From positions 3,038,001-3,102,000 of the forward strand of contig NZ_PDBS01000001.1 of the NCBI RefSeq assembly GCF_002572525.1: DNA of 64,000 bases. The letters are read 5' to 3'. Source of the stretch: Natrinema sp. CBA1119 (GTDB lineage: Archaea > Halobacteriota > Halobacteria > Halobacteriales > Natrialbaceae). Below, one piece after another: positions 1,458 through 56,075 of this stretch (position 1 is the first letter of the stretch; each line of letters opens with the position of its first letter). The notes beneath the pieces are model-generated. The model saw nothing but the letters and a program-made list of their open reading frames with translations. It had not been told where the DNA came from and searched no databases. The translations under genes and the position numbers were made by a program.

Positions 1458-2639
1458 TCATCGATCCCGGTCGACCGTTTCACCGGGTGCCGTGGTCGTG
1501 CCGGTCGCGAGTTTCAGCCCGGGAGTCAGACTCGTGTTGATGCCGGTCTTCGCCCCGTCTCCCGCGACGACGCCGAACGTCCGCCGGCCCGTCGAGAGTC
1601 GTTCGCCCTTGACCGTAAACGAGACGTCCGCGTCGTCGTGGCGGCGATTCGCCACCGTCGTTCCCGCACCGAAGTTGACGTTCCGACCGAGGATGCTATC
1701 GGCGACGGCAGAGAGGTGGTTCACCGATACCCCCCGCGAGAGGACGCTGTTTTTCACCTCGACACCGTTTCCGATCGAAACGCCTTCACCGATCACCGTC
1801 GCACCTCGGACGGACGCGTTCGGGCCGACGGTGGCCCCCGACCGGAGCAGCACCGGTCCCTCGATCACAACGCCGGGCTCGACCGTCGCTCCCGCTTCGA
1901 CCACGACCCGCCCCTCGAGGTGCGCCGCGTCGCTGACCGCGCCGTCGATCCGGCGCTCGAGCTCGCCGACTTTCCACTCGTTGGCCGCGAGCAGTTCCCA
2001 GGGACGGCCCACGTCCAGCCACCGGTCGAGCGTGACCGGCGTGACCGCGTACCGCTCGATGACCCGCGTGAGCACGTCCGTGATCTCCCGTTCGCCCCGT
2101 TCGCTCGCGGGCACCTCGAGCCACTCGCGGGCGTCCGCCGGGAAGGCGTAGGCACCGGCGTTCGCGAGGTTCGTCGGCGGCTCGTCGGGCTTTTCGACGA
2201 TGTCCGTGACGGTGCCGTCGGTCGTACTCAGGACGCCGTAGTTGCGGGGGTCCGACACCTCGGCGGCACAGACCGCCGGACAGGCGTCGAACAGCCGATC
2301 GATGGCGGCGGGATCGTAGAGGTTGTCCCCGTTCAACACGGCGAAGGGGCCGTCGATGTGTTCGCGGGCCGCGTCGACGGCGTCGGCAGTCCCCGTCTGG
2401 GCTTCCTGGACGGCGTAGGAGACCGGGACACCGCGGTACTCCTCACCGAAGTACTCCCGGACCGTCTCACCCTCGTAGCCGACGACGAGCACGATCTCGT
2501 CCGCGCCGGCGTCGATGGCGGCGTCGGCCGTGTGCGCGGCCAGCGGCCGGTCGGCGACGGGCAGCATCGGCTTGGGACGGGACGCGGAGAGCGGCCTGAT
2601 CCGCGTCCCCTCACCTGCCGTGAGAAGGATGGCTTTCAT
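1458..2639 (-). CDS. glmU: bifunctional sugar-1-phosphate nucleotidylyltransferase/acetyltransferase (GlmU type)
   Basis: This protein of 393 aa is predicted to acetylate glucosamine-1-phosphate and/or transfer UMP to give UDP-GlcNAc in the cytoplasm. The N-terminal nucleotidyltransferase domain opens with AILLTAGEGTRIRPL and KPMLPVADRP. It also has LNGDNLYD for metal binding and VEKPDEPP. From about residue 240 a left-handed beta helix of hexapeptide repeats (VVVEAGATVEPGVVIEGPVL) gives the acyltransferase-like part. The C-terminal GINTSLTPGLKL is typical of archaeal GlmU-like proteins. The start is supported by a TATA-like TTTATAATTA on the minus strand about 26 nt upstream. Neighbouring glmS and glmM support the role. 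A dTDP-glucose type specificity cannot be fully excluded. Confidence 0.9.
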   Translation of the reverse strand: MKAILLTAGEGTRIRPLSASRPKPMLPVADRPLAAHTADAAIDAGADEIVLVVGYEGETVREYFGEEYRGVPVSYAVQEAQTGTADAVDAAREHIDGPFAVLNGDNLYDPAAIDRLFDACPAVCAAEVSDPRNYGVLSTTDGTVTDIVEKPDEPPTNLANAGAYAFPADAREWLEVPASERGEREITDVLTRVIERYAVTPVTLDRWLDVGRPWELLAANEWKVGELERRIDGAVSDAAHLEGRVVVEAGATVEPGVVIEGPVLLRSGATVGPNASVRGATVIGEGVSIGNGVEVKNSVLSRGVSVNHLSAVADSILGRNVNFGAGTTVANRRHDDADVSFTVKGERLSTGRRTFGVVAGDGAKTGINTSLTPGLKLATGTTTAPGETVDRDR

Positions 2640-3106
2640 CGAATCGACGTACGCTGATCCGGCGGATAATTATAAAGCTGTTACAGTGGTCGACTCGAGC
2701 GACGGTTGGATGCGTCCCGAGCGATGATTGGACGCTTTCCGAGCGGCGGACCGATGCATCGCCGACCCGGTTCGGCGACCTGTCTCGGCGACCCGTCTCG
2801 GCACCGAAGTCGGACCGGATCCGGTTCGGATCCGATCCGGATAGTACCGAATCGGACGGGGCTCGAGTGATCGATACGACAGTCCCGGTTCGGTCGCTCC
2901 GGGACGACGAACGGTGGGCCGGAAAACGGGCCGAAATACGATATTTCGTTTCGGTAATACTGTATTTCTCTCGAATGCGGGCCTAATACGTTCGATATCT
3001 GGAGTGTTTCGATGGGGTATCAATCGCCGCCGGCAGCGCGAACGGCCTGTCGCCGCGTCGATTATGCGGTCTATAGTAAATACCGTTCTGTGGTTACGGG
3101 TTGTTG
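2640..3106. promoter_or_regulatory. divergent promoter region of glmU and the small zinc-finger gene, with tandem palindromes
   Basis: This is a gene-free stretch of about 470 bp. The left end holds an AT-rich box (around 2665-2675) placed for glmU. The right end holds TATAGTAAATA (about 3072-3082), roughly 25 nt before the ATG at 3107. In the middle, GAAATA-CGA-TATTTC (2933-2947, perfect) and GTAATA-CTG-TATTTC (2954-2968, one mismatch) are two 6-3-6 palindromes whose centres are 21 bp apart, about two helical turns. Similar palindromes lie upstream of two beta-helix genes later in the window. Confidence 0.55.
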
Positions 3107-3313
3107 ATGTCGACGGATCCATCCGCAAACTGGACGCCAATGACGTCCGGCCAGCAAACGACCGCCCCCCGATGTGTCAACTGTGGCAACCAGGTAACTC
3201 GACAGTTCGCTCGCGTCTTCGGCGACAACCGCGACGTCGTCCACGCCTGTCCCGACTGTGCGACGTACCGCGAGATGAAGACCTCCGATTTCATTCCGAA
3301 AGAAGCCAGATAG
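3107..3313 (+). CDS. small DUF7563-type zinc-finger protein
   Basis: This 68 aa protein has two CxxC pairs (CVNCG and CPDCA) about 25 residues apart, joined by the conserved VTRQFARVFGDN segment. It is a small haloarchaeal zinc-finger family of unknown function, which I associate with DUF7563. A close paralog lies at 52166-52357. I chose the ATG at 3107 rather than the in-frame TTG at 3101, because it aligns with the paralog start and sits about 25 nt after an AT-rich box. A DNA- or RNA-binding role is inference from the zinc knuckles only. Confidence 0.8.
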   Translation: MSTDPSANWTPMTSGQQTTAPRCVNCGNQVTRQFARVFGDNRDVVHACPDCATYREMKTSDFIPKEAR

Positions 3314-3389
3314 CCGGTCCGTAACTGCCGACCGTCTCGCGTGCTCCACCGTCGGCCGGGCAGGTCTCGCCGATCAGTTGCCGCCGTCG

Positions 3390-4718
3390 TCACTCCCCCC
3401 TCGTCGCGACGGCTTCGGTAACGAACGCCTGCGCGTCCTCGAACAGCGCCTCGGCGTCGGCCGCCGACCGCGCCTCCGCCGTGACGCGGATCAACGGCTG
3501 CGTGCCGCTGGCGCGAAGCAGGAACCAGCCGTCATCGGTCTCGACCCGAACGCCGTCGAGCGTATCGATCTCGTCGTATCGCTCGCTTACCCCCTCGCTG
3601 ACGTCGGCCATCACCGTCGCCTTCGCTTCCACTTCGATCGACGTTCGCCGGATCGGATACCCCTCGATGTCTCCGACGAGTTCGGAGAGCGCCCCTCGTT
3701 CGGCGATCAGTTCCACCAGTTTACACGCCGCGAGCGGGCCGTCCGGACTCAGCGTCTCCTCGGGCCAGATCCACGCACCGCTCGGTTCGCCGCCGAAGAC
3801 GACGTCGGCCTCCGTCGTCCGCTCCGCGACGTACACGTCCCCAACCTGCGTCCGCGTCAGCGACGCGCCGACATCGGTCAGCGCGTCGTCGACGGCCAGA
3901 CTCGTGTCGACTGGGGCCGCGACCCGGTCGCCCGATCCCGCCGCCTCTCGAGCGAATATCGCCAGTAACGCGTCCTTCGGGACGAAGGTTCCCGTCTCGT
4001 CGACGGCCACCATTCGATCGGCGTCGCCGTCGTGAGCCACCCCCAACTCGGCGTCCGTTTCCGCGACGAGGGTCGAGAGCGTCTCGAGAGTTTCTGCTGT
4101 CGGTTCGCTCGGCCGGCCGGGGAAAGAGCCGTCCGCCTGCCCGTTGAGCGTCCGAACCCGACAGCCGAGGTCGTCGAGCACCGATGCCGTCACGCCGCCG
4201 GTCCCGTTCCCGATATCGACGACGACGCTCGGCGACCGCTCGAGGTCCACCGCTGACTCGATCGCGTCCGCGTGGTGGTCCTGGACGCCGTCGCGACGCG
4301 TTCGGTCGCCGACCCCGTCCCACTCGGCCAGCCCGTAGTCGTCCTCGCGAATCCGTCGTTCGACGGCCGCGCGCTGGTCGGGGCCGAAGGCCTTCCCCGA
4401 CGGGTTCCAGAGCTTGAGCCCGTTGTCGGTCGCCGGGTTGTGCGAGGCCGTCACGACGACTCCCGCATCGGCTCCGAGGTGGTCGACCGCGCGGGCGATC
4501 GCCGGCGTCGAGGCGACGCCGACTTCGACGACGTCGGCACCGCACTCGCGCAGTCCCGCGCCGACTGCCTCGACGAGCATCGAGCCGCTCTCTCGAACGT
4601 CGCGGCCGACGACGACCCGGTCGTACCCCTCCGAGGCGACGGCGCGGCCGACCGAGAGCGCCAGCGCCGCCGTCACCTCGTCGCCCACCCGCCCGCGAAT
4701 ACCGCTGGTTCCGAACAT
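3390..4718 (-). CDS. glmM: phosphoglucosamine mutase
   Basis: This 442 aa alpha-D-phosphohexomutase interconverts glucosamine-6-phosphate and glucosamine-1-phosphate, linking GlmS and GlmU. The start is MFGTSGIRG, the hallmark N-terminus of the family, so I reject a 23-residue upstream extension to 4787. Key features are the phosphoserine loop TASHNPATDNG (Ser92), the metal site HDGDADRM, the sugar-binding GGEPSGAWIWPE and the C-terminal phosphate-binding RASGTQPLIRV. A phosphomannomutase activity is possible for such archaeal enzymes, but the glm neighbourhood favours glucosamine phosphate. Confidence 0.92.
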   Translation of the reverse strand: MFGTSGIRGRVGDEVTAALALSVGRAVASEGYDRVVVGRDVRESGSMLVEAVGAGLRECGADVVEVGVASTPAIARAVDHLGADAGVVVTASHNPATDNGLKLWNPSGKAFGPDQRAAVERRIREDDYGLAEWDGVGDRTRRDGVQDHHADAIESAVDLERSPSVVVDIGNGTGGVTASVLDDLGCRVRTLNGQADGSFPGRPSEPTAETLETLSTLVAETDAELGVAHDGDADRMVAVDETGTFVPKDALLAIFAREAAGSGDRVAAPVDTSLAVDDALTDVGASLTRTQVGDVYVAERTTEADVVFGGEPSGAWIWPEETLSPDGPLAACKLVELIAERGALSELVGDIEGYPIRRTSIEVEAKATVMADVSEGVSERYDEIDTLDGVRVETDDGWFLLRASGTQPLIRVTAEARSAADAEALFEDAQAFVTEAVATRGE

Positions 4719-18168: not shown

Positions 18169-18231
18169 GCGCGGTTCGGAGCGAGCGCGGTTCGGAGCGA
18201 GCGCGGTTCGGAGCGAGCGCGGTTCGGAGCG
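18169..18231. repeat. 16 bp tandem repeat, about four copies
   Basis: The unit GCGCGGTTCGGAGCGA recurs head to tail about four times directly before the 57 bp repeats. The sequence is open in several frames but shows no protein-like composition. Confidence 0.8.
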
Positions 18232-18425
18232 AGCGAAGTGAGCGAGAACCGCGGGAATGCGAACGGCGAGCGAAGCGAGCCGTGAGCGAGCGAAGTGAGC
18301 GAGAACCGCGGGAATGCGAACGGCGAGCGAAGCGAGCCGTGAGCGAACGAAGTGAGCGAGAACCGCGGGAATGCGAACGGCGAGCGAAGCGAGCCGTGAG
18401 CAAACACCGTAAGCGAGAACCGCGG
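18231..18425. repeat. 57 bp tandem repeat, three copies plus a partial fourth
   Basis: Units span 18231-18287, 18288-18344 and 18345-18401, with a diverged partial unit to 18425. Each contains GAGCGAAGTGAGCGAG, AACCGCGGGAATGCGAACGG and CGAGCGAAGCGAGCC. The period is 19 codons, so several frames stay open across it, but the predicted peptides are Arg/Ser/Glu repeats. GAGCGAAGCGAGC-type words are common in haloarchaeal intergenic DNA. There are no unique spacers, so this is not a CRISPR array. Confidence 0.85.
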
Positions 18426-52712: not shown

Positions 52713-53216
52713 ATGTCAGTTCAAACGAACAGAACTGAGCCGCTCGAGGAGAGCGAGGTCTTTCACATCCTCGGTAACGATAGACGGCGGGCTATCGTCC
52801 AGCTGCTCGCGGAGGAAGGCGGACAGATCGACGTCTCCGACGTGGCGACCGAGATCGCTGCGACGGAATCCGATACCACGCCCGTCCCGAATAACCTCTA
52901 CAAGAGCGTCTACGTCTCCCTCCAACAGACGCATCTCCCCCAGCTCGAGGAAGACGCCGTGATCGAGTACGACTCCGACGCGAAGACGATCCAGCCCGGT
53001 CGTCACTTCGACGAGGTCCTCCAGTACGTCGACGGACACAACGACGACCACTCGCGCGTCTTGGGGCTTCACCTCGGGCTCTGTCTGCTCGGGCTCGCGA
53101 TCATCGCGCTCGCCGGCCTCGGACTGCCGGTCGTCTCGAGCATCGATCCGGTGCTCTCGAGCGTGCTACTGTTTCTCGCCGTCGCTGCGAGCGGCCTCTA
53201 TCAGCTGCTTGGTTGA
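52713..53216 (+). CDS. DUF7344-type winged-helix membrane protein (paralog 3 of 3)
   Basis: This 167 aa protein has a winged-helix head: SEVFHILGNDRRRAIVQLLAEEGGQIDVSDVATEIAATES, then KSVYVSLQQTHLPQLEEDAVIEYDSDAKTI. Two membrane helices follow at about 115-165, ending almost at the last residue. It has the same layout as the proteins at 17469 and 48654, but lacks the WEND segment after the helix-turn-helix. Probably a membrane-tethered DNA-binding protein of unknown role. Confidence 0.8.
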   Translation: MSVQTNRTEPLEESEVFHILGNDRRRAIVQLLAEEGGQIDVSDVATEIAATESDTTPVPNNLYKSVYVSLQQTHLPQLEEDAVIEYDSDAKTIQPGRHFDEVLQYVDGHNDDHSRVLGLHLGLCLLGLAIIALAGLGLPVVSSIDPVLSSVLLFLAVAASGLYQLLG

Positions 53217-53486: not shown

Positions 53487-55322
53487 TCAGTCGGCCGTCA
53501 CACCGTCGGTAGTGTTTTCACCGGTGTCGTTGAGACCGTCTTCAGTCTCGTTCGTCTCGTTGTCGAGTCCGGTGTCTTCGGTTTCGGACTCGTTTGTTTC
53601 GTCGTCGATACCGGTGTCAGTCTCTTCGGTTTCCTCGGTCAGCTCGAGGGCCGCGACCTCACCGGATTCGTCCGACAGCACCATGTGGACGTAGTCGCCG
53701 GTAGCGAGGCCAGTGGTGTCGACCTCGAACTCGACGTCCTCGCTCGCGCCGCTCTCGAGGGTCACGTTCTGCTCGGCGACGAGGTCACCATCGAGACGGA
53801 ACTGGATCGCCTCGGTGCGTTCCTCGTCCGTCGGGTTCGAGACGTTCGCCGTCACGGTGATATTCTCACCGATCGTGGCGCTGCTGGGCGCCTCGAGGTC
53901 ACTAACGTTGAAGGATTCGGCTGCCGCAACATCGGCGGCGTCATCCTCAGTTTCGTTGTCGTCGATCGGTTCTTCGTCGATCGGTGTGAGGTTATCTTCC
54001 GTCTCGTTATCCTCGGTCTCGTTGTCGTCGATCGGCGTAAGGTCGTCTTCCGTTTCGTTGTCCTCGGTGACGTTGTCTTCGGTTTCGTCGTCGATCGGTT
54101 CTTCGTCGATCTGCGTGATGTTCTCGTCCGATTCGTTATCGTCAGTGACGTTGTCTTCGGTTTCGTCGTCGTCAACCGGCATCTCACCGTCGGTGACGTT
54201 GTTGATCTGGTCTGCGATCTCGTCACCGTCAACGTCTTCACCGACGACGAGAACGTAAACGGTCACGTTCTCGATGTTCAGGTTCTCGATGGTTGGATTC
54301 TCGACGGTCACGAAGATCGGCTGTCCGTCACCATCGACCGGTAGATCCTCCATCGGCATCTCATCGACTGGCTCTTCGTCGGCCCCCTCGTCCTCGTCGG
54401 TTACGTTGTCGTCAATCGGTTCGTCGGTTTCGTTGTCGTCAATCGGTTCGTCGGTTTCGTTGTCGTCAATCGGTTCGTCGGTTTCGTCATCGACGAGCTC
54501 ATCATCAGTCTCGTTGTCGTCAGCTAGCCCGTCGTCGTCGGTTTCGTTGTCGTCGACGAGGCCATCATCGGTTTCGTTGTCGTCAACCGGTTCGTCGGTG
54601 ACGTTATCGGTTGGTTCTTCGTCAGTGACGTTGTCGTCCGGCTGCTGAACGTCCTCGTCGGTCTCGGTATCCTCGACCGGCTCCTCATCGGTCGCATCCT
54701 CGACGGTGACCACTGCATCGTCGGTCACCGGCTCGTCGTCGGCCGTGAGGAAGGGTCCGTCAAACTGCCCCTCCGATTCGACGAAATCGTACGTCTGATT
54801 GTCGTTCGTATCGCGATGGGGCATCGCAATCAGGGTCTCGTCCTCCTCGAGCGGTTCGTCGAGGGTGACTTCGACCTGTTCATGCGTGCCGGCCTCGAGG
54901 TACTCCGAGGTACCGATGACGCTCTCGAAGACCTCTCCCACGAGGAGGCTGCTATCGTGGATCGTCACGAAACCGGGGCTCGCGATCGTGACGTTCTCGA
55001 CGACGACCGTCTCGCCATCGGTCGTCTGATCGTCGAACGTCACGTACGCGGGCTGGGAGTCGTTGTCCGTGTCCGCGGTTTCATTGTCAGCGTCACCGTC
55101 GTCGGGGACCGTCTCGTTTCCGTCGATCCCCGTGGCTGTCTCGTCCTGTTCGTCGTCTACCGTTTCGTTCGTCGTCTCGTTCGCTGAGTCGTACTCGTTC
55201 GCGCTGGCCTCGCTGCTCTGATCGATGGTGTCACCGGATGTGGCGGCTGTGACCATCGCCCCGCTCGAGCAAACGAGCATCAGCGCGGTAAGTACGACGA
55301 GCAACTGATTGCGTGCGTTCAT
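53487..55322 (-). CDS. exported DUF7282-type surface protein with very many N-glycosylation sequons
   Basis: This 611 aa protein has a Sec-type signal (MNARNQLLVVLTALMLVCSSGAMVTAA). A DUF7282-like beta domain (AYVTFDDQTTDGETVVVENVTIASPGFVTIHDSSLLVG, then HRDTNDNQTYDFVESEG) spans about residues 85-205. Long Asp/Glu/Asn/Thr-rich stretches of DDNETDEP and EDNETEDN repeats follow. A CARDB-like domain near 490-580 (VSDLEAPSSATIGENITVTANVS) and an acidic tail complete it. I count more than 30 N-x-S/T sequons. No C-terminal anchor (PGF or helix) is visible. It is probably a heavily glycosylated cell-surface or secreted protein. The first 14 residues of a longer frame are rejected as upstream. Confidence 0.78.
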   Translation of the reverse strand: MNARNQLLVVLTALMLVCSSGAMVTAATSGDTIDQSSEASANEYDSANETTNETVDDEQDETATGIDGNETVPDDGDADNETADTDNDSQPAYVTFDDQTTDGETVVVENVTIASPGFVTIHDSSLLVGEVFESVIGTSEYLEAGTHEQVEVTLDEPLEEDETLIAMPHRDTNDNQTYDFVESEGQFDGPFLTADDEPVTDDAVVTVEDATDEEPVEDTETDEDVQQPDDNVTDEEPTDNVTDEPVDDNETDDGLVDDNETDDDGLADDNETDDELVDDETDEPIDDNETDEPIDDNETDEPIDDNVTDEDEGADEEPVDEMPMEDLPVDGDGQPIFVTVENPTIENLNIENVTVYVLVVGEDVDGDEIADQINNVTDGEMPVDDDETEDNVTDDNESDENITQIDEEPIDDETEDNVTEDNETEDDLTPIDDNETEDNETEDNLTPIDEEPIDDNETEDDAADVAAAESFNVSDLEAPSSATIGENITVTANVSNPTDEERTEAIQFRLDGDLVAEQNVTLESGASEDVEFEVDTTGLATGDYVHMVLSDESGEVAALELTEETEETDTGIDDETNESETEDTGLDNETNETEDGLNDTGENTTDGVTAD

Positions 55323-55574
55323 GGTTGCCGTGAAGGCACCAATTTCGTCGTTGCTTCGGCGCATAAACCGGCGGAACCATTACGCGAGAAATCGGATACT
55401 ACGGCCCAGCAGTGGCGTATTCAGTGTCGGGTTCGTTCGCGGAAAACAACGATTGCTGATAGGAACGGTCGACGGTCAGTTCCGTTCCGCTCGGTACCGG
55501 CAACGAGAACCGGGACACCACATGCGGATCGGGGACGCCACACGCGGATCGCGCTCTGCTGTCGGGATGAATGA

Positions 55575-56075
55575 CTAATCGTCGTTCACCTGTTCGGGCG
55601 ATTTCGACGCCGTCGGTTCGTGACCCGGCAGGCAGACCAGGTTCTCCCGTCCGAGACGCAGTTTCGTGATCTGTTCGTCCTCCTCGAGGTCCGCGAGCAG
55701 TCGACTGACCTTCGCCTTCGACCAGTCGACGGAGTCGACGATGCTCGACTGCTTCATCCGCCCGCCGTTTTCTCGGAGGAGTTGTCGAACGCGCTCCCGA
55801 TCGGTCACGAACTCCTCGTGGTGCGTCTCGGGACCGGCCGCGAGCGAGGCCGGCTCCTCGTATCGGTTGCGAGCGACGAGTATCCCTCCAAGAAGCGCGA
55901 GCGCGATCATGCCGGCGAGCGCAGCGATGTGGGCGCTTCCCTCCAGCTGGAGCGGTTGGGCTGACCACGAGATGAACCCCGGCCGAGCGCCCGTGGTCAC
56001 CGCTGACGCGACGGCTCCACTGATCGACGGAACGAGCGCGACGATGGATCGGGGAGCTCGTCGGTGGCTGCTCAT
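55575..56075 (-). CDS. membrane-anchored winged-helix regulator (DUF7343-like)
   Basis: This 166 aa protein has an N-terminal membrane helix (HIAALAGMIALALLGGILVARN, about 48-70) and a weaker hydrophobic stretch before it. The C-terminal winged helix is DRERVRQLLRENGGRMKQSSIVDSVDWSKAKVSRLLADLEEDEQITKLRLGRENLVCLPGHEP. This is the layout of haloarchaeal membrane-bound HTH proteins with the KAKVSRLLxxLE motif. It is upstream of, and co-directional with, the sequon-rich surface protein at 250 bp, so it may control it; that is inference. Confidence 0.85.
   Translation of the reverse strand: MSSHRRAPRSIVALVPSISGAVASAVTTGARPGFISWSAQPLQLEGSAHIAALAGMIALALLGGILVARNRYEEPASLAAGPETHHEEFVTDRERVRQLLRENGGRMKQSSIVDSVDWSKAKVSRLLADLEEDEQITKLRLGRENLVCLPGHEPTASKSPEQVNDD

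Follow-up and report, generated by a model that had tools for sequence, protein, structure and literature searches.

The locus raises the question of why one acidic protein of Natrinema sp. CBA1119 contains so many N-x-S/T sequons: whether they follow from its composition, or whether they are retained as sites of N-glycosylation. The protein was read from the minus strand of the window (the whole stretch of DNA that was analysed, 64,000 nucleotides). The start MNARNQ at 55322 and the stop codon at 53487 delimited a protein of 611 amino acids, in agreement with the coordinates originally predicted, and a longer frame around it opened at 55364 (55364..53487, 625 codons). Past the signal region, the protein contained three basic residues and no cysteine, and Arg170, Arg502 and Arg509 were its only trypsin sites. 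Pfam gave a full-length DUF7282 match and no other family over the cut-off, an NCBIfam profile scan of the protein gave no match, and a sequence search of it against solved structures reached a best E of only 0.79. AlphaFold2, run with 32 sequences, predicted confident beta domains at about 92-207 and 472-562, and the linker was mostly at pLDDT <50. A promoter scan of sigma-70 style, a consensus unsuited to archaea, found no promoter. The features are listed in Table 1.

Table 1. Coordinates of the sequon-rich gene, its parts and its two neighbours in the window.
Feature	Position	Strand	Basis
Sequon-rich DUF7282/CARDB-fold acidic ORF, exported-looking, 611 aa, 35 sequons	53487..55322	-	ORF reading, sequon count
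Sec-type signal-peptide-like N-terminus, residues 1-27, MNARNQLLVVLTALMLVCSSGAMVTAA	55242..55322	-	Sequence; predicted helix 3-19; cleavage site inferred
N-terminal acidic linker, residues 28-88, 5 sequons	55059..55241	-	Sequon count, predicted structure
DUF7282 beta-sandwich domain, residues 92-206	54705..55049	-	Pfam E ~2.5e-42; AlphaFold2
DxNxNxxxDxxE loop inside DUF7282, DTNDNQTYDFVE, residues 171-182	54777..54812	-	Pattern kept in 36/40 aligned domains
Repeat array 1, residues 228-312, DDN[EV]TDE-type units, 8 sequons	54387..54641	-	Repeat search, sequon count
Mid segment QPIFVTVENPTIENLNIENVTVYVLVVGEDVDGDEIADQ, residues 334-372, alternating hydrophobic, low model confidence	54207..54323	-	Sequence, predicted structure
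Repeat array 2, residues 386-465, EDNETEDN / PIDDNET-type units, 9 sequons	53928..54167	-	Repeat search, sequon count
CARDB-fold domain (predicted), residues 471-563, 4 sequons	53634..53912	-	Predicted structure vs 3idu
Acidic C-terminal tail, residues 564-611, 5 sequons, without transmembrane segment	53490..53633	-	Sequence, hydropathy
Upstream neighbour, hydrophobic segment and DUF7343 winged helix, possibly membrane-anchored regulator	55575..56075	-	Pfam 1.9e-28, synteny
Downstream neighbour, DUF7344 domain and hydrophobic C-terminus	52713..53216	+	Pfam 2.1e-25, synteny

The 35 sequons comprised 15 NET, 9 NVT and 11 others. When the 625-aa frame was shuffled, the mean was 7.2 and the maximum 16 sequons, and the observed number was reached in none of 10,000 shuffles; the original prediction of more than 30 sequons was thus confirmed and exceeds what composition would give. 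Among 279 ORFs of the window and 390 kb of the same genome, sequon density and sequon number were both highest in this ORF, in a comparison that used crude ORF calling over about 9% of the genome and non-random background stretches, several of them placed on AglB, S-layer-type and DUF7282 loci. The sequons had been expected between the two domains, which held for the 19 in the inter-domain linker (207-470); the other 16 lay elsewhere, namely 5 in the linker at the N-terminus, 2 within DUF7282 and the remainder distributed over the CARDB-like domain and the tail. The regular spacing of one sequon every 8-12 residues was not found, the gaps in the inter-domain linker being uneven and ranging from 5 to 46 residues. 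Similarly, the proposed repeats DDNETDEP and EDNETEDN occurred as exact octamers just 2 and 1 times, and the looser word [DE]DNx[TS] occurred 15 times.

A similarity search of 100 relatives gave a match in 86, including 28/28 same-genus genomes, and part of the matches outside Natrinema are merely other DUF7282 proteins. The genome sets searched held one genome per species. With the window, the 47 fetched loci made 48, of which 45 were usable orthologues: 28 from Natrinema (window included) and 17 from other genera. A truncated gene (L065), a gene cut by the contig end (L074) and one whose domain core was not recovered (L082) were left out. The loci of other genera were the better matches to the query and therefore non-random, coming from 18 of 32 same-family genomes and from one genome of another family (L084).

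In the part outside DUF7282, all 28 Natrinema orthologues exceeded every one of 1,000 composition shuffles, compared with 7 of the 17 from other genera, and the sequons numbered 17-55 (median 24.5) and 0-30 (median 3), respectively. Unique 8-residue contexts were counted to lessen the effect of copied repeat units. In Natrinema, T/S stood at +2 of Asn in 372/466 of these contexts (80%) and at +2 of Asp in 180/1,647 (11%); for Asn in other genera, the count was 101/241. The strongest point against chance is that Asn of the Natrinema linkers lies mostly within sequons. The enrichment was also present in the N-terminal linker, where 97/121 Asn of Natrinema were inside sequons (sequon shuffle mean 25.7), and in the last 45 residues (90/95; shuffle mean 17.4). 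In the neighbouring DUF1616 protein of Natrinema, which served as a control, 43/217 Asn were inside sequons. Furthermore, in 20 orthologue pairs (>=80% identical), which share branches and so are not independent and whose alignment inside repeats is ambiguous, 198/247 aligned linker sequons were common to both members, against 54/136 for D/E-x-S/T, and the Thr/Ser codon of the sequons had 83 silent and 39 replacing changes. Because all 28 orthologues were enriched and Asn differed so much from Asp in sequon-type contexts, the sequons of Natrinema linkers look selected rather than incidental. The unusual density that drew attention to the gene is thus kept throughout the genus, and the shuffles together with the Asn-versus-Asp comparison ruled out a by-product of composition. 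Copying of repeats as the sole cause was weakened by the enrichment in non-repeat segments and by the differing units elsewhere.

The DUF1616 control also weakened the idea that sequon richness is a habit of all exported proteins of Natrinema, although other sequon-rich exported proteins exist. A 458-aa ORF (L110:5839-7212; G000:C1:3705839-3707212) had 19 sequons, 4.15 per 100 aa. By eye, its N-terminal part looks exported and is crowded with N-x-T, and is followed by a hydrophobic stretch rich in Gly and Ala and then by a winged-helix-like sequence; the ORF is apparently a sequon-packed, membrane-anchored regulator. In N. gari (L116, about 2746-3618) and N. ejinorense (L117, about 2491-4014), a different exported-looking protein carried LEDNETEDD / DGNETDDEL tandem repeats, which match the acidic sequon style of the arrays on an apparently unrelated scaffold.

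The history of the sequons was examined on a FastTree phylogeny of seven concatenated flanking proteins (46 taxa), in which Natrinema formed a single clade. Sequon-rich tips outside it (>=10 sequons; L066, L069, L070, L072 and L073) lay on scattered branches. Fitch parsimony gave 5 to 7 changes of sequon state by threshold, with an ambiguous root state at 3/4 thresholds, so that gains are not firmly separable from losses. The sequon-bearing units were EEPNETEEPVV in L069, PNETDDEPV in L070 and DENVTDDEEEEDEF in L073; other tips had sequon-poor acidic units (EEPVEEEP, DDEPVDDEP, DEPEEDEPE or DADDNGLED). These differences in the units favour several gains, losses being less likely. In the other-family locus L084, the orthologue-like protein had VETTEEVETTEE repeats that were Thr-rich and not sequon-rich; their O-glycosylation is a guess.

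The arrays themselves change length, at least between species. In the closest relative, G008/L043 at 93% identity, array 1 was about 48 residues shorter than in the window and array 2 about 50 residues longer; both differences were in frame, and the total lengths were nearly equal (602 against 611 in the window). The mid segment was retained between both arrays in this relative. In the window, two adjacent repeat units were identical in all nine codons, and other units differed silently. Variation of repeat length by slippage had been proposed, and the part of it that stood is the in-frame array change between species. Elsewhere in the window, a 16-bp unit in 4.2 copies with 100% matches and a 57-bp unit in 3.5 copies formed tandem arrays at 18169-18425, near 18.2-18.4 kb.

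The DUF7282 domain (PF23951), which had been called DUF7282-like, matched the whole profile (1-112) at 144 bits against a cut-off of 27 (E ~2.5e-42), and its model alone had a mean pLDDT of 94.3. The family was present in 120/145 genomes sampled from the class, and a literature search under the name DUF7282 found no paper. Tandem ORFs with at least 4 DUF7282 domains occurred in several Halobacteria (G010, G011, G027, G028, G091, G093 and others). In addition, a short exported-looking protein of Aquibium sp. (L118, about 2866-3315), an alphaproteobacterium, had a DUF7282-like match that included YETNDNQTYDF. The loop DTNDNQTYDFVE followed the pattern D.[ND].[ND]...D..[ED], with a spacing that we take to be that of an EF-hand-type calcium loop, and may be a divalent-metal site. 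One sequon (NQT) is part of this loop and may thus be retained for a reason other than glycans.

For the second domain, the prediction of a CARDB-like identity was right by fold. The predicted domain (464-564) matched 3idu (PF1109 CARDB) at Z 12.9 with 98 aligned residues and an rmsd of 3.3, and 2kl6 at Z 12.5; other Ig-like folds scored close behind. The Pfam CARDB profile was absent among the matches of the 611-aa protein at E<=1, and absent at E<=0.01 among the families matched by 32 aligned orthologues. The domain is accordingly called CARDB-like by its predicted fold only.

It could be argued that the polyacidic linker itself is the conserved function, as a salt-adapted, cation-binding or entropic spacer, and that the sequons are a minor, lineage-specific addition to solubility or stability that is mostly unoccupied. 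Linker acidity is indeed conserved in all orthologues, and sequons are not: the acidic fraction outside DUF7282 was 0.33-0.48 in Natrinema and 0.34-0.54 in other genera (0.33-0.54 across all 45), and the sequons varied from 0 to 55. Other genera use sequon-free acidic units, the metal-like loop of DUF7282 was kept in 36/40 aligned domains, and PF1109 CARDB (3idu) was solved with metal ions, according to the title of the structure. Moreover, 10/17 orthologues of other genera were not sequon-enriched and yet the gene was kept, which is the strongest point against an essential role of glycans. Because these genera keep the gene in place with equally acidic, sequon-poor repeats, the core function cannot hinge on N-glycans. 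However, incidental sequons would not stand far above composition, as N-x-S/T does in Natrinema, also in non-repeat segments, and we regard this spacer explanation as rather unlikely.

The gene order DegT - DUF1616 - PadR - HTH - DUF7344 - sequon gene - DUF7343 HTH - epimerase - dihydroorotase was largely retained across the family, with a DUF7344 relative at 27/27 counted Natrinema loci and 16/17 others. In the truncated locus L065 (G020), the orthologue match stopped after about residue 177, the flank was rearranged, and the usual downstream neighbours were not found within the 17 kb fetched. The conserved genes on both sides of the sequon gene encode DUF7344 and DUF7343 proteins that look like regulators, have hydrophobic segments and are possibly membrane-bound. 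As both stay adjacent to it across the family, the protein might be the secreted partner of a surface-sensing circuit, i.e., an extracellular target or reporter of this helix-turn-helix-type pair. Such a role is improbable in our view, being suggested by synteny alone: the conserved neighbours include unrelated housekeeping genes (dihydroorotase and dihydroorotate dehydrogenase), and the gap of 252 bases to the upstream DUF7343 regulator makes a shared transcript not evident. The nearby glycan locus, together with the sequon density, had also been taken to make the protein a likely main acceptor of glycans. A DegT aminotransferase was nearby at 7/7 sequon-enriched loci of other genera, but also at 6/10 non-enriched ones, and the AglB-type oligosaccharyltransferase lies about 0.42 Mb from the window; since the glycan locus is also present where the orthologue lacks sequon enrichment, its proximity was discounted, and the protein is at most a candidate main acceptor.

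The predicted N-terminal helix and the sequence give the protein a signal-peptide-like start, many residues of which are near-invariant among orthologues, and the protein is probably exported. TIGR04207 (halo_sig_pep) was found at 5 places in the genome, the 611-aa ORF not among them. An STT3/AglB-type oligosaccharyltransferase was matched at C1:2618405 (65.7 bits, cut-off 24.5), upstream of the window start. The ArtA signature of the S-layer glycoprotein consists of a C-terminal PGF motif, a transmembrane segment and a basic tail. None of this was seen in the tail TNETEDGLNDTGENTTDGVTAD: hydropathy gave neither a C-terminal transmembrane segment nor a positively charged end, and the last 40 residues lacked K/R, so that the protein might be released rather than kept at the surface. 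In 25/45 orthologues, a very acidic stretch is followed by a short hydrophobic C-terminal tail (e.g. AAIGFVVA; L047, L048 and L067), which is missing in several from Natrinema, the window's included. We know of no anchor signal of this form.

The protein might alternatively be an adhesin or a component of the biofilm matrix, its reach set by the glycosylated repeats and its adhesion tuned by length change, as both arrays do change length in frame between close relatives. In a second-look structural ranking of DUF7282, a biofilm-associated protein came first with its BSP domain (Z 8.7), but this entry stood just 0.8 over the next (7.9), and Foldseek with the domain model alone gave no match at E<=0.001; this likeness is a hint at most. 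With no anchor found by hydropathy at the C-terminus, we consider adhesion quite improbable as the main role. Finally, the repetitive, low-complexity DNA, with long frames also on the opposite strand, might suggest that the frame is spurious or the gene decayed. This is practically excluded by the existence of orthologues, which come from 27 further Natrinema genomes and from other genera, by their conserved domains and residues, and by silent changes.

On balance, we consider it probable, with considerable reserve, that the protein is exported and that its acidic linker is decorated by AglB, so that an anionic brush rich in glycans would stand on a conserved scaffold of beta domains. Two rigid beta-sandwich domains (DUF7282 and the CARDB fold), joined and trailed by long, disordered polyacidic segments, would be exported by Sec. 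In the Natrinema lineage, these segments would have been loaded with sequons, and selection would maintain the N-x-S/T sites through the duplication, loss and rewriting of repeat units. AglB, at the external side of the membrane, would add oligosaccharides to the linker sequons. The glycosylated linker may then form a stiff, hydrated and anionic brush that keeps both domains apart or shields them, on the cell surface or within the matrix around the cell, and the DUF7282 loop, the CARDB fold and the acidic linker might bind divalent cations. A broader proposal is offered as a tentative possibility, namely that haloarchaea have repeatedly and independently made a polyacidic linker an N-glycan brush by means of sequons in fast-copying repeats. 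The density of sites, and not the repeat sequence, would be selected, several unrelated exported proteins of the genus would be affected, and the process would be an N-linked counterpart of mucin repeat evolution.

The DUF7282/CARDB family provides a natural experiment, in which one scaffold with the same place and acidity occurs with and without sequons, switched several times. It permits a direct test of the role of N-glycans on disordered acidic repeats in high salt, and a test of whether, beyond animals, the density of sites for N-linked sugars evolves in a mucin-like way. No description of such a protein was found in the literature on haloarchaeal acidic tandem-repeat secreted glycoproteins, Natrinema N-glycosylation (titles and abstract starts) and archaeal mucin-like proteins, in which subscription journals were thinly covered.

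Among haloarchaeal proteins, those of the S-layer and the pili are the best-known cases of dense N-glycosylation. The S-layer glycoprotein (SLG; HVO_2072 of Hfx. volcanii) is an exported AglB substrate, as the 611-aa protein would also be. Within the sampled stretches of the Natrinema genome, the two halo_sig_pep surface proteins, of about 800 aa, carry 10 and 11 sequons, in contrast to the 35 in 611 aa found here. In archaeal glycosites, position X shows little preference except that proline is excluded (PMC8342417). For Haloferax volcanii, another report (PMC8241124) gives 39 N-glycoproteins with 102 sites, and 19 confirmed AglB sites for the probable secreted glycoprotein HVO_2160; multi-site exported glycoproteins are thus already known in haloarchaea. 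HVO_2160 resembles the 611-aa protein as a haloarchaeal exported-type protein with many N-glycosites or sequons, and the DUF1616 protein HVO_2173 is encoded in its cluster hvo_2160-2173, a DUF1616 gene being also near the 611-aa ORF. However, HVO_2160 is the largest protein of Hfx. volcanii and predicted to be ArtA-processed, and no anchor was seen in the Natrinema protein. Halomucin Hmu1 of Haloquadratum walsbyi is a secreted coat protein for which a negative charge and glycosylation have been proposed, but it has 9,159 aa, and the mucin comparison is one of function only (PMC1544339, PMC4378361).

With the repeat domains of animal mucins (e.g. MUC7), the likeness lies in glycan sites on fast-changing tandem repeats, here in the sites and the array change only. 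Mucins are mainly O-glycosylated on Ser/Thr. In contrast, the Natrinema motif is N-linked and the repeats are acidic, so the analogy is functional and no homology is claimed. Among these systems, the 611-aa protein would be a compact, repeat-based case of a multi-site haloarchaeal glycoprotein.
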